In this document: positions 46,200 to 53,711 of the stretch, one piece after another | How the letters are laid out: each line of letters starts with the position of its first letter | Position numbering within the stretch: the stretch's first letter is position 1 | NCBI RefSeq assembly: GCF_005869845.1 | Contig: NZ_VAWF01000001.1 | Coordinates: 1,054,001-1,118,000, forward strand | DNA: 64,000 bases | Reading direction: 5' to 3' | Origin: Fodinibius saliphilus | Lineage (GTDB): Bacteria > Bacteroidota > Rhodothermia > Balneolales > Balneolaceae | Notes under the pieces: generated by a model | Told to the model about the DNA's origin: nothing | The model's database searches: none | What the model saw: only the letters and a program-made list of their open reading frames with translations | Program-made: the position numbers and the translations under genes

Positions 46200-47195
46200 T
46201 TGTTAAGTTGTTTTTTTATAATCTTTATTATCAATACTGTGCAGCTGAAATCTTTTGGCTCAATTTTCTTTTTTTCACTTATAGGAATATTTTACTATTC
46301 CTATTTCAGTGTCGGGCAATACCTTATTGAAAGTAATACTGCCGAAATTTCCACTCACCAAACAGTTGCCTGTGAAAAAGTTCTCACCTATAGAATTGCA
46401 AATATCGATGAAAAATACGATATCAGTAATAGCGAATTAAAGCAGGTGATGAGGAAGGTTGAATCGCTTTGGGAACAATCAGTACAGAAAGAACTTCTGC
46501 AATATAAAAAAGAGGGAGAAATTGGCATTCATCTGATCTATGGCGACGAACAACAACGTTCACAGAATGAAAAACAATTATCTCGACGCATTAAGACATT
46601 AGATCATCGCGTCGAATTGATGAGAAAATCATTCAACCGTCTTTCTAAAAAATATAAAGAAAAGAGCGGAGAAATGGAAAAAGCGTTGGATAAGTACAAT
46701 AAAGCTGCATCGAAATTCAATAAAAAAATAGAGGAGTGGAACAAAAAAGGTGGAATACCACGTAGCAAAAAATCAGAAGTAGAACAGATGCAAAAAGATC
46801 TCAAACAGCTACAACGTAAAGGAAATAGACTAAAAACGGCTGCAGAATCATTACGACAACGAGCTAATGCAAAGTCAGAACAACTTAACGATTTGGTAGA
46901 TCGACAAAATGAAATGATTGCCGAATATAACAGCCGATTTAGTGAAGTAGGACGATTTGATCAGGGACAGTATCGTGTTGCAGGTAATCAAAAACGTATT
47001 AACATTTATCAGTTTGGAAATAGGGCAGAACTTACAGCTGTTTTAGCACACGAAACGGGCCATGCTCTGGGGCTTGACCATGTCGACAACCCAAAATCGA
47101 TTATGCATGCTGTAATGGATAAACAAAATATCTTTGACTTAAGCCTAACAAAAGAAGATGTCAGTGCTCTACGTCAGCGATGTAACAACTATTAA
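46200..47195 (+). CDS. metzincin-type metalloprotease with coiled-coil insert, copy 1
   Basis: 331 residues, start at a TTG (46200) because no ATG precedes the first hydrophobic segments (IIFIINTVQLKSFGSIFFF, LIGIFYYSYFSVGQYLI), which act as signal/anchor. A matrixin-like N-terminal part (LTYRIANIDEKYDISNSELKQVM, EIGIHLIYGDEQ) is interrupted by about 160 residues of Lys/Glu-rich coiled coil (SRRIKTLDHRVELM to SRFSEV), then the zinc site HETGHALGLDH at about 283-293 and a Met-turn SIMH. The C-terminus LSLTKEDVSALRQRCNNY is shared with copy 2. Likely a membrane-bound exported peptidase; substrate unknown. Confidence 0.8.
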   Translation: MLSCFFIIFIINTVQLKSFGSIFFFSLIGIFYYSYFSVGQYLIESNTAEISTHQTVACEKVLTYRIANIDEKYDISNSELKQVMRKVESLWEQSVQKELLQYKKEGEIGIHLIYGDEQQRSQNEKQLSRRIKTLDHRVELMRKSFNRLSKKYKEKSGEMEKALDKYNKAASKFNKKIEEWNKKGGIPRSKKSEVEQMQKDLKQLQRKGNRLKTAAESLRQRANAKSEQLNDLVDRQNEMIAEYNSRFSEVGRFDQGQYRVAGNQKRINIYQFGNRAELTAVLAHETGHALGLDHVDNPKSIMHAVMDKQNIFDLSLTKEDVSALRQRCNNY

Positions 47196-47283
47196 CAGCT
47201 GATACAAGCATCTTTTGACCTTGTGAAAAACGAATGTGAATTATCTAACAATCGTATTATTCATTCTTCATTCATTTATTCTC

Positions 47284-48321
47284 ATGAAACACATTTTTGC
47301 CGTCATCTTTTCGGCCCTATTTTTAGGATCCTCAGCTTACCTTAATGCTCAACAAACACCAACTGTAGATTCTGCTTTAAAGAAAAGTAATACGGCCTTC
47401 GAAAAGATTCGGAAGAACCATTCTGAAATCCTTCCAAATAAATATGCCGACCCTTTTTATCCCTACTACCAAAACTATCCCCAAACAGAACCCTGTGGAA
47501 AAACTATCACCTATAGAATTGCAAATATTGATATCAAATACAATATCAGTAATAGTGAATTAAAGCAGGTGATGAGAAAGGTTGAATCTCTTTGGGAACA
47601 ACCGATAGGAGAAGATCTACTCCAATATAAAAAAAACGGAGAGATTGGCATTCATCTGATCTATGGCGGTGAACAACATTTAGAGAACGACAACAAGTTT
47701 CCTCAACACATTAAGATTAAGACATTAGAAAATCGTATCAAATTAATAAGAAGGTCATATAAACGCCTTTCTAAACGATATAAAGAAAAAAGCGAAGAGA
47801 TGGAAAAAGCGTTGGCTAAATACAACAAAGCTGCAAAAAGGTACAATAGAAAAATAGAGGAGTTGAAAAAAAACGGTGGAATACCAAGCAGCAAAAAACA
47901 AGAAATAGAACAAATACAGAGAATGCCTAAACAGCTAAAAGATAAAGCAATTAATCTAAAACAAACTGCGGAATCATTGCGACAGCGATCTAATAAAAAA
48001 TCAAAAGAACTTGACGACTTATTAGATCGACGAAATGAAATGATTGCCGAGTATAACAGCCGATTCGGTGAAGCACAACGATTTAATCAGGGACAGTATC
48101 TGGTAACAGGTAATCGGAAACGTATCAATATATACCAGTTTAGCACTAGGGCAGAACTTACAATCCTTTTAGCGCATGAAACGGGTCATGCCTTGGGGCT
48201 TGACCATGTCGACAACCCAAGATCAATTATGCATATTGTATTGACCAAACAAAATATTTTTGATTTGAGCCTAACAGAAGAGGATATCAACGCTCTGCGT
48301 AAACGTTGTAACAACTATTAA
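47284..48321 (+). CDS. metzincin-type metalloprotease with coiled-coil insert, copy 2
   Basis: Paralogue of the gene before it, 345 residues from the ATG 47284, with a clean signal peptide (KHIFAVIFSALFLGSSAYLNAQ) instead of the copy-1 anchor. The shared parts are nearly identical: TYRIANID, ISNSELKQVMRKVESLWEQ, the coiled-coil insert with QRSNKKSKELDDLLDRR, HETGHALGLDHVDNP and SLTEEDINALRKRCNNY. An extra N-terminal stretch (about 25-70) carries PFYPYYQNYPQTEPCGK. Arranged head-to-tail with copy 1 with an 88-bp spacer, a clear tandem duplication. Confidence 0.85.
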   Translation: MKHIFAVIFSALFLGSSAYLNAQQTPTVDSALKKSNTAFEKIRKNHSEILPNKYADPFYPYYQNYPQTEPCGKTITYRIANIDIKYNISNSELKQVMRKVESLWEQPIGEDLLQYKKNGEIGIHLIYGGEQHLENDNKFPQHIKIKTLENRIKLIRRSYKRLSKRYKEKSEEMEKALAKYNKAAKRYNRKIEELKKNGGIPSSKKQEIEQIQRMPKQLKDKAINLKQTAESLRQRSNKKSKELDDLLDRRNEMIAEYNSRFGEAQRFNQGQYLVTGNRKRINIYQFSTRAELTILLAHETGHALGLDHVDNPRSIMHIVLTKQNIFDLSLTEEDINALRKRCNNY

Positions 48322-49250: not shown

Positions 49251-50264
49251 ATGGATCCCGTTACCCACGGTATTATAGGGGCCTCAGCCTCACAATCTTT
49301 TAGCACCCAAAAAGAACATCGCTATGCGGCAGTAACCGGTCTCCTTGCCGCAATGTTGGCCGATCTGGATATCTTGATCAGCGATGCCAGTGATCCCCTA
49401 CTAAATATTGAGATACATCGTCAATTTTCTCATTCCTTAATTTTTATTCCAGTAGGTGCCCTACTCGCAGCAGGTATTCTCTGGTGGTTTATGCGCCAAA
49501 AAATCTCATTTAAAAAGGTATACCTCTTTAGCCTACTAGGCTATGCTACCAGCGGGATAGTTGACTCTTTAACCAGTTATGGTACTAAACTATTATGGCC
49601 CTTTATTGATGAGCGGTTCTCTTGGAATATCATATCAGTCTTTGATCCCCTTTTTTCTCTGGGTGTTCTAATAGCTGTAGGGCTTGCATTCTATTATAGT
49701 AACAATAAAATAGCACAATTTGCCTGGGCCTGGATGCTTCTATATCTGCTATTTGGTATGATACAGCAGGAACGAGGTAAAGATGTTGCCAAGTCATTAG
49801 CCAATCAACGCAATCACCAAATTGAAGAGCTTGTAGTAAAGCCTACAATAGGCAACATATTTTTATGGAGCATCCGTTATAAAACTACCGATACACTTTA
49901 TGCCGACGGTCTGCATCTTATGTCTCTTACAGCCCCTACCATCTATGAAGGAAGTGCTGCCCCCCTTTTAGACTGGAAAAAAAAATATCGTTCATATCAG
50001 GGAACAACCCTTTATAATGATATTAAACGTTTTGATACCCTCTCTGATGGATATCTTATTCAACATCCCGAACACCCTAACATCATTGGGGATGGACGTT
50101 ATGCTATGCTGCCTACAGCTTTAAATCCATTATGGGGTATCAAAATTGATACTACCAATGCCGAAATGCATGTTCCCTTTAAGACATTTCGCAACCCTAC
50201 CTCGAATGTACGCTCGAATTTCTTGAATATGCTACTGGGCAGAAATCATACATTCACCAGATAA
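49251..50264 (+). CDS. metal-dependent hydrolase-like membrane protein (DUF457/YdjM)
   Basis: Inner-membrane protein of 337 residues of the DUF457 family (LexA-binding YdjM-type). It starts DPVTHGIIGASASQSF, with further metal-ligand-type residues in ADLDILIS and HRQFSHSLIF, then SYGTKLLWPFIDERFSW and FDPLFSLGVLIAVGLAF, with about 5 helices; the soluble C-terminal half (about 180-337) is exported or cytosolic beta-rich. The family resembles phospholipase-type hydrolases but activity is unproven. The next gene starts 90 bp on. Confidence 0.85.
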   Translation: MDPVTHGIIGASASQSFSTQKEHRYAAVTGLLAAMLADLDILISDASDPLLNIEIHRQFSHSLIFIPVGALLAAGILWWFMRQKISFKKVYLFSLLGYATSGIVDSLTSYGTKLLWPFIDERFSWNIISVFDPLFSLGVLIAVGLAFYYSNNKIAQFAWAWMLLYLLFGMIQQERGKDVAKSLANQRNHQIEELVVKPTIGNIFLWSIRYKTTDTLYADGLHLMSLTAPTIYEGSAAPLLDWKKKYRSYQGTTLYNDIKRFDTLSDGYLIQHPEHPNIIGDGRYAMLPTALNPLWGIKIDTTNAEMHVPFKTFRNPTSNVRSNFLNMLLGRNHTFTR

Positions 50265-52095: not shown

Positions 52096-52836
52096 CTAAA
52101 TTATCAATTTCACTACATAACCCACTGTCATAGCCAACAAAGTAGAAAGCAAAGTCCCGATCAGAACGTACTCAGCAAAATCCCTGCTTTTTATATCTAT
52201 CAACCTTGCCACCCCTTTTGCTGCAAGAATAAAACCGATAGCTGTATAGTGTCCCAGCAAAACAAAAATGAATACAAAAATACGCTCCAACAAACCGATA
52301 ATCCTGCCTGTACTATACTCTTCATCATCTACTTGTTTCTTATCATCTCCCAACGATTTAACTCCCAATACTCTTAATAAATAGCGGAGTAAAATATTCA
52401 TCTCGTTGAGTACCAAAAGGAAGCCAAATAATAACCCCTGAACAGCCACAAAATTTGCAGTTTTAATCGCTCCATCCGCTAGCAGAATTTGATCCATAGA
52501 ACCAACAATATCAGTGGTCAAATTATTTGCCTGTAAAGAAGTAAGTGGACTACAAATAAGCGCTACTAAAACAAGCTGAAAAACCAATAAAAAGCCACGA
52601 CTTTTCCGGAGTTTCCATACCTCCTTTTCCGTCCCCCACATCAAAAATGATATCCCAATAAAGTAGCACACTAATAAGAACCATCCTATATTAACCTGCA
52701 AAAAAGGAAGTGCAAGAAAAGGGATCATCTCTACCCTCAGCACGCCCTTCCAATCCAGGGCTTCATCCCTCAACATAAAATGTAATCGTCCTAATAATGT
52801 TAGATTAAGAATACTCAGTAATATCTCATATTTCAT
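52096..52836 (-). CDS. DUF3307-like polytopic membrane protein
   Basis: Membrane protein of 246 residues with about six helices. The C-terminal third (GRIIGLLERIFVFIFVLLGHYTAIGFILAAKGVARL, then FAEYVLIGTLLSTLLAMTVGYV) matches the conserved membrane segment that follows DUF3307 domains; the N-terminal DUF3307 motif (HLLGDF-type) is not evident here, so it may be a shortened or diverged member. It is the second gene of a two-gene unit, 4 bp after the SatD-like gene, and is probably its partner. Confidence 0.6.
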   Translation of the reverse strand: MKYEILLSILNLTLLGRLHFMLRDEALDWKGVLRVEMIPFLALPFLQVNIGWFLLVCYFIGISFLMWGTEKEVWKLRKSRGFLLVFQLVLVALICSPLTSLQANNLTTDIVGSMDQILLADGAIKTANFVAVQGLLFGFLLVLNEMNILLRYLLRVLGVKSLGDDKKQVDDEEYSTGRIIGLLERIFVFIFVLLGHYTAIGFILAAKGVARLIDIKSRDFAEYVLIGTLLSTLLAMTVGYVVKLII

Positions 52837-52840
52837 AAGA

Positions 52841-53482
52841 TCAGCTCTCTATTTCATGATTAATAATGTCTGCCATATTTTCACTCAATTCCCCTATTAT
52901 ATCAAGCAAAGCTGCGTTCTTATTTTTATAAAATGCCGCTTTTGATATCCCCAGTTCTTCAGTTATGATTTTATAATTATCCCCTTCTTTAATCATATAT
53001 AAAATTCGCAAACGGTTTTTGTTCCAGCTTCGCACCTGCTGTGACAATAATTGCAAGCTGTTGTTTATGAAAGCAGTAGTCGACAGCTGTTGACCGGCTA
53101 CACTAAGATGAAACAGGAACCCACTCTTCTTGAGTTTTTCAACCCCTCTCCGCGCGACATGAAAGGCTGGCCCATCCATTCCTATAGCCTGCTCATTATT
53201 TATTGGGGTATTTATATCCCCTACCCCAACAGAAAAACGTACTTTTACCGGGTAAAGCTCTGCAAGAATTTTTAGGATATCAGTGCACACCCCATCAGCC
53301 CTTTTGAATACCGCCTGAAATTCATCACCCAGCGTAATGGTATAGGGAGATACTATCGCGCTATTACCCTCACTTAACCTCCCTAAGATGCGATCAAGCT
53401 CAACTTGTAGATTCTCCCTTTCTTCATTAGATAACTCCTTAGAATCCTCAACATCTCCTATCAACACAATAAACTTATCCAT
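52841..53482 (-). CDS. SatD-family protein with cyclase-like domain and C-terminal HTH
   Basis: Protein of 213 residues. Residues 3-120 follow the SatD pattern: FIVLIGDVEDSKEL with Asp10, ITLGDEFQAVFKRADGV with Asp53, RFSVGVGDIN and AIGMDGPAFHVARRGVEKL. These are also the landmarks of the class III cyclase/GGDEF palm fold (two metal-binding acids, then the RxGIHTG-like strand). A helix-turn-helix lies near 168-198 (NYKIITEELGISKAAFYKNK). No catalytic activity is known for SatD. It precedes the DUF3307-like gene by 4 bp on the same strand. Confidence 0.75.
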   Translation of the reverse strand: MDKFIVLIGDVEDSKELSNEERENLQVELDRILGRLSEGNSAIVSPYTITLGDEFQAVFKRADGVCTDILKILAELYPVKVRFSVGVGDINTPINNEQAIGMDGPAFHVARRGVEKLKKSGFLFHLSVAGQQLSTTAFINNSLQLLSQQVRSWNKNRLRILYMIKEGDNYKIITEELGISKAAFYKNKNAALLDIIGELSENMADIINHEIES

Positions 53483-53711
53483 GCCACATTAATTAATTAT
53501 CTTTCTCTATATTTAACCATTTTAGTATAAAAAATCAATTTTAAACTATATCGGTTTACAATATTTTTATTAAACCTAAATGGGTTACTTTTAAATTAGT
53601 TTCTGCCCGTTTTATTTCCTATTCTCTTTTCTATGTAATGCTTCATATTTTTTATTTCTTCACTGATAGATGTTGTCCAAAACCAACAACGCCACCACAC
53701 CAATTTAACCT

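Follow-up and report, generated by a model that had tools for sequence, protein, structure and literature searches.

SatD is probably a one-component transcriptional autoregulator, which would bind an array of palindromes over its own promoter, be switched by a nucleotide in its palm domain, and have a neighbouring membrane protein as its output and source of feedback. The protein studied here is encoded in a window of 64,000 nucleotides from Fodinibius saliphilus, where satD (213 amino acids; 52,841-53,482) and the gene of its membrane partner (246 amino acids; 52,096-52,836) follow one another on the minus strand with 4 bases between them, as an earlier note on this DNA had correctly read. 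That note, made from the letters alone, did not mention the array. It is this array that indicates what the conserved output of SatD is, namely DNA binding and autoregulation.

The SatD and DUF3307 families, and their adjacency, are already visible in public annotation. As far as we searched, the literature found does not describe the palm assignment, the homology of the window's partner to DUF3307 proteins, the constant C-terminal module of the partners or, most notably, the operator array of 28/29-bp steps with its wide distribution. That literature holds almost nothing on SatD and DUF3307; for SatD we found only an association with acid tolerance and essentiality in Streptococcus pyogenes (PMC11323703), with no mechanism, fold, operator or partner.

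A palindromic array at the satD promoter

Aligning the regions upstream of Fodinibius satD genes revealed conserved palindromes of the form AACYNNNNNRGTT (17-bp form TNAACC-N5-GGTTNA), which occur at 3.2 per kb upstream of satD versus 0.22 per kb over all loci. They form arrays that step by 28 or 29 bp and reach a maximum of five sites, in a Melioribacteraceae genome. Among 81 satD upstream regions of clade A, to which the window's SatD belongs, 53 contain an AACYN5RGTT site and 30 contain site pairs at 28/29 bp, against at most 5 and none, respectively, in 200 shuffles. A detector independent of the site sequence, defined as two similar palindromes 20-40 bp apart, gave matches at 28 bp (49), at 29 bp (48) and elsewhere in that range (6) on 170 satD promoters, versus 7 matches over six spacings on 290 control genes from the same loci. 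With redundancy removed, 28/29-bp pairs are present in 73 of 143 satD promoters (shuffle mean 0.25), and all other spacings from 20 to 40 bp contribute five pairs between them. By group, the pairs were found in 41/67 promoters of clade A, 7/15 of clade B, 18/21 of clade C, 5/36 of Firmicutes and 2/4 of the archaeal and alphaproteobacterial set. About half of the non-redundant satD loci are without an array under these strict criteria, many of them lying on fragmentary contigs or having possibly misplaced starts. Two satD genes on alphaproteobacterial plasmids (Agrobacterium pAt, L190; a Sphingomonas plasmid, L191) are followed by short unannotated genes, and at neither did the strict detector find an array.

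The half-sites differ between groups: AACC in clade A, TTCA or TTGCA types in clade B, TATCGG, TGTTAC or ATAAG types in clade C, and GTTCGG and TACAACC in haloarchaea. The geometry of the array is constant while the sequence of its sites changes with the SatD lineage. With palm similarity removed, similarity of the SatD recognition helix is correlated with operator similarity (partial r 0.18; at most 0.11 in 300 permutations), and the rest of the HTH gives 0.08, below the value for the recognition helix. This correlation, significant but small, gives modest support to the suggestion that SatD itself reads the array.

In the window, three putative operator sites lie 31 to 105 bases ahead of the satD start in 29-bp steps, with no strand assigned: site 1 (TAAACCTAAATGGGTTA; 53,571-53,587), site 2 (TAAACTATATCGGTTTA; 53,542-53,558) and site 3 (TTAACCATTTTAGTATA; 53,513-53,529). 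When a matrix trained on other genomes was used to score every 17-mer of the 64 kb, these sites ranked second (10.8 bits), first (18.4 bits) and third (10.4 bits); the next-best 17-mer scored 8.0, and the triple sum of 39.7 has no competitor. A promoter-like match lies beneath sites 1 and 2, although taken alone it does not exceed chance expectation.

Of 11 genomes, 10 contain the exact array pattern, and 9 of these have it exclusively ahead of satD; among the genomes tested the array is essentially unique to this promoter. The single exact match in the genome of the window lies elsewhere (C1:1839979), because two of its three satD sites are one base off the pattern; being away from satD and made of weaker T/A variants, this match was taken as chance. 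With their regular, iteron-like layout of up to five sites, next to a gene pair that includes a membrane protein, the arrays might also be bound by some other regulator, or have a non-transcriptional purpose, for instance to anchor the locus to the membrane via the pair, as partition iterons do. We consider this very improbable: the site sequence tracks the SatD lineage and its recognition helix at constant geometry, and exact arrays stand at the satD promoter in 9 of the 11 genomes.

SatD has a palm domain with a conserved, predicted metal site

The window protein matches the profile of the SatD family (PF16264; sat operon of Streptococcus mutans) at 93.2 bits against a curated cut-off of 29, so that its earlier description as SatD-like holds. 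Its closest named relatives are in Fodinibius species, the F. halophilus SatD being 73% identical. An AlphaFold2 model with a 35-sequence alignment as input (mean pLDDT 95.5, pTM 0.91) has the element order beta-alpha-beta-beta-alpha-beta-alpha-beta, followed by five helices which contain the HTH. The palm is predicted with high confidence in the N-terminal 130-150 residues (nucleotidyl-cyclase-like domain at about residues 1-131; 53,090-53,482, minus strand). In the model Asp10 (codon 53,453-53,455, minus strand) closes strand 1, Asp53 (codon 53,324-53,326, minus strand) sits in the TLGDEFQ hairpin turn linking strands 2 (43-49) and 3 (54-59), and the RFSVGVG motif forms strand 81-89. These are the positions, as in cyclases and GGDEF domains, that had been proposed for them from the sequence. 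The C-terminal HTH proposed at the same time (about residues 153-192; 52,907-53,026, minus strand) is seen in the model as helices 155-165, 170-177 and 181-190, which resemble HTH_23 at an E value of 2.5e-4, under the Pfam cut-off.

Searching the PDB with the model by Foldseek gave class III cyclases as the top matches (E 1e-4). VIA-align gave Z scores of 12.8 for GTP cyclohydrolase III (2qv6; 114 residues, 2.4 A), 12.0 for a eukaryotic guanylate cyclase (3et6), 12.0 for Cmr2/Cas10, 11.2 for the GGDEF protein DgcZ and 11.1 for mCpol (9pd0). The fold of the SatD model can be regarded as settled, namely a palm, as the earlier note had suspected, with class III cyclase, GGDEF and mCpol structures all at Z 11-12; the closest palm subfamily is not separable, the scores being tied within about 1 to 2 units, and GTP cyclohydrolase III, the best structural match, shares a sequence identity of only 13%. 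Searches of PDB sequences with a SatD palm profile gave weak Ma1120 matches (E 0.2) with the first profile only, which were gone with another and are not evidence; matches of SatD to 14-3-3 and HTH sequences there were chance or generic.

By the model, Asp10 and Asp53 occupy the places of the two metal acids of the palm fold and are the predicted metal ligands. In an alignment of 170 SatD sequences across phyla Asp53 is present in all and Asp10 in 169, the remaining row being gapped, so the two acids singled out in the earlier note are indeed conserved. Within clade A, Ser14, Arg22, Gln26, Thr48, Ile49, Thr50, Leu51, Gly52, Asp53, Glu54, Phe55, Gln56, Arg82, Thr92, Asp103, Gly104, Ala110 and Arg111 are all 100% kept. 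Across the 170 sequences, Arg111 is replaced by Gly in 31, mainly of the DUF3307-type branch, Arg112 is variable, and the place of the class III Asn (His108) holds His, Tyr, Thr, Val or Ile and never Asn, where the equivalence to class III transition-state residues is by motif alignment from family knowledge and not by coordinate superposition. SatD is thus like class III nucleotide cyclases (Ma1120, Rv1900c) in its palm fold and in having two metal Asp at the same predicted places, but it differs in that the transition-state Arg and Asn and the base-specifying Lys are not kept, and in having an HTH attached. PF00211, for class III cyclases, gave no match to SatD at E up to 1, and SatD sequences have TLGDEF or YRGDEF only, with no GG(D/E)EF and no match to PF00990 for diguanylate cyclases. 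Judged by residue conservation, SatD therefore retains the metal site of the palm fold and does not retain the set of catalytic residues known from class III cyclases.

It may be that SatD nonetheless catalyses hydrolysis, cyclisation or transfer of a nucleotide and leaves the array at a time set by this reaction, the enzyme cycle being the switch. In clade A the metal acids with TITLGDEFQ, Arg22, Gln26, Arg82, Thr92 and Asp103 are near-invariant, which exceeds the usual needs of simple ligand binding, and the top fold match is an enzyme, GTP cyclohydrolase III. Against this, no residue of SatD can be assigned as a base, as a transition-state residue or as one that specifies the base of the nucleotide, and Arg111 is Gly in the DUF3307-type branch; we consider a catalytic switch of this kind a minor possibility beside the array-binding autoregulator proposed below.

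A membrane partner with a constant C-terminal module

The window partner is modelled as an all-helical membrane protein (pLDDT 88.5), which agrees with the earlier description of a six-helix membrane protein in kind, although with 9 predicted helices the number six was only approximate. Its assignment to the DUF3307-linked type also holds: Pfam gave no family match, and none to DUF3307 (PF11750) at E up to 1, but hhalign aligned it with DUF3307-type proteins over its whole length (249 columns, probability 99.9, E 6e-35). By this profile comparison it is a diverged homologue of DUF3307 proteins over the full length, sharing with them also its place in the same gene pair.

Three partner architectures occur: the DUF3307 type; the window type, which is of the same length and homologous to it; and a C-terminal module alone, of about 111 amino acids. 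This membrane module (52,099-52,308, minus strand, in the window) is the constant part of the partners. In 57 window-type partners its residues G181, E184, R185, K207, R211, E222, Y223, G227, T228 and S231 are 98-100% kept, and their equivalents are 96-100% kept in 55 of the DUF3307 type, so that a pattern of Gly, Glu-Arg, Lys, Arg, Glu-Tyr, Gly-Thr and Ser holds at 96-100% across 112 proteins. The N-terminal half differs between types. DUF3307-type proteins (L031-L060 and others) conserve intramembrane H11, D15, Q19, K27, H40, H68, D72, D91, Q92 and H95, a His/Asp/Gln set which looks, from its residues, like a metal or catalytic site; H11/D15/Q19, H40, H68/D72 and D91-Q92/H95 are replaced in the window type, which has conserved residues of its own (R17, R80, E145, N147 and R151), and the set is absent from the 111-residue type. 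Also in the window, a gene at 49,251-50,264 (plus strand) near the pair encodes a DUF457/YdjM-like membrane-bound hydrolase with a TH...H...D pattern resembling that of DUF3307, and a distant relation is possible.

The partner matched no PDB entry by fold (best VIA Z 6, within the noise for helical bundles) and no PDB chain by sequence, and a Pfam scan found no known nucleotide-binding or effector domain in it. A MASE2 match in 2 of 30 partners (E 0.0018) was not reproduced in the proteins consisting of the C-terminal module only, and was not used.

A fixed gene pair outside defence islands

In a phylum sample, 30 of 30 strong DUF3307 loci have an adjoining SatD gene, whose end coincides with the DUF3307 start or lies no more than about 20 bases from it; among the most divergent DUF3307 loci 17 of 20 do, with longer gaps in some. 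Conversely, the C-terminal membrane module lies just downstream of SatD in 68 of 80 cross-phylum loci of named organisms; of the remaining 12, several are truncated where a contig stops. The adjacency is far beyond chance, and the neighbours are not random across genomes. With the palm fold and the invariant acids, the outcome thus favours the earlier note on all three of the checks that it had set for its own reading. SatD and DUF3307 are distributed over more than ten phyla and haloarchaea; the pair is present in Clostridia and their relatives, and on haloarchaeal replicons, where the NCBI annotation reads SatD plus DUF3307. Rare exceptions to the pairing are three DUF3307-type genes with no adjoining SatD (L198, L201 and L204), two of them next to a ThiF/MoeB-like gene.

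We found no further gene recurring beside the pair across phyla. As read from the sequence, the window pair is flanked by a divergent gene for a UPF0182-like membrane protein and, farther away, by cupin-like, DUF457-like and S1-like genes, with no defence-like gene seen among these neighbours. PADLOC models gave only weak matches to the window pair (best E 0.012, with most of them falling on the HTH), and no SatD was found in phage records or in an IMG/VR scan. A defence island was rejected on these results, and a Pycsar-like or Panoptes-like role is not supported, there being no PADLOC match, no recurrent neighbour and no viral copy. We know of no membrane partner for GTP cyclohydrolase III. 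The Panoptes system includes a membrane partner. Its mCpol is a minimal palm domain like that of SatD (PMC12657218), but Panoptes is an antiphage system, whereas the window pair has no PADLOC match and its partner no known effector domain.

These results bear on whether SatD could be an active cyclase or nucleotidyltransferase whose second messenger acts on the membrane partner, in a Pycsar-like or Panoptes-like manner, with the HTH being secondary. Such an enzyme would account for a palm fold with both metal acids invariant and for a near-obligate membrane partner. We regard it as unlikely, given the lack of a PADLOC match and of phage or viral-contig copies, a partner without a known nucleotide-binding domain, class III Arg and Asn that are not retained, and a conserved operator array that suggests transcription as the output. 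The functional class of a cyclic-nucleotide effector pair, to which the earlier note had likened the two genes, likewise fits poorly with a transition-state Arg that is not kept across the SatD family.

A two-gene unit with an operator array is also reminiscent of toxin-antitoxin systems, the membrane protein being harmful and SatD an autoregulating antitoxin, and in S. pyogenes satD is reported to be an accessory gene that is nevertheless essential (PMC11323703). The pair, however, is usually single copy and not in phages, and F. halophilus retains satD beside a broken partner, which such a system allows but which is not typical of it; this reading we judge improbable. In that F. halophilus locus (L061:4649-5400, also L011) satD is intact and the partner frame is broken into pieces, with breaks in the C-terminal module as well. 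A second pair, of the DUF3307 type, is present in this genome (G274).

A model for SatD as an array-binding autoregulator

We propose that the C-terminal HTH of SatD binds the palindromes that recur over the satD promoter in steps of 28 or 29 bp, each palindrome being bound most likely by a SatD dimer, with contacts linking neighbouring dimers. A step that stays fixed despite changing site sequence implies contacts between neighbouring bound units. Since a 28- or 29-bp step does not correspond to complete turns of 10.5 bp, we infer that successive units would rotate round the helix, or that the DNA would need to be wrapped or twisted. Three features together suggest an autoregulated unit: the HTH tail of SatD, the presence of the array at essentially a single promoter in each genome tested, and the close coupling of the two genes. 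In such a unit SatD on the array would repress the two-gene operon; repression rather than activation is our assumption. It fits the report that satD is the only accessory gene of S. pyogenes to be essential where present (PMC11323703), as would be expected for a repressor of something harmful.

The natural input for such a regulator would be its palm, with Asp10, Asp53 and the conserved residues around them forming a metal-nucleotide site, whose occupancy or turnover would alter the SatD oligomer and, through it, the occupancy of the array. This step is drawn by analogy with NrdR, whose oligomeric state depends on ATP or dATP and which, as an oligomer, recognises two boxes a fixed distance apart (PMC12051234). 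NrdR resembles the proposed SatD in sensing nucleotides and in its fixed box spacing, of about three helix turns centre to centre, but it is built from an ATP-cone and a Zn ribbon and not from a palm and an HTH, its targets are RNR operons, and its boxes lie 15-16 bp apart, whereas the SatD array has a period of 28/29 bp and up to five sites. The closely coupled membrane protein would be the regulated output of SatD, and its invariant Glu-Arg/Lys/Arg/Glu-Tyr module probably returns a membrane signal to SatD, likely by direct contact.

More tentatively, SatD may represent a new class of regulators common to bacteria and archaea, in which a palm acts as a nucleotide-driven and possibly catalytic switch, builds a helical array along the DNA with a fixed 28/29-bp step, and both controls and contacts a new membrane module. 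If the palm is a sensor, then the fold of cyclases, GGDEF proteins and Cas10 serves not only to make signals but also to read them in transcription. Autoregulation by SatD could also explain how satD can be essential and yet accessory in S. pyogenes. The array offers a handle on these questions: its operator is defined, most of the genomes tested have only one target promoter, its geometry can be tested and it could serve in a ligand assay.

Also in the window, two tandem plus-strand genes (46,200-47,195 and 47,236-48,321) encode similar proteins that combine the zinc-metalloprotease motif HETGHALGLDH with a long coiled-coil insert; to judge from their likeness, this looks like a recent duplication.
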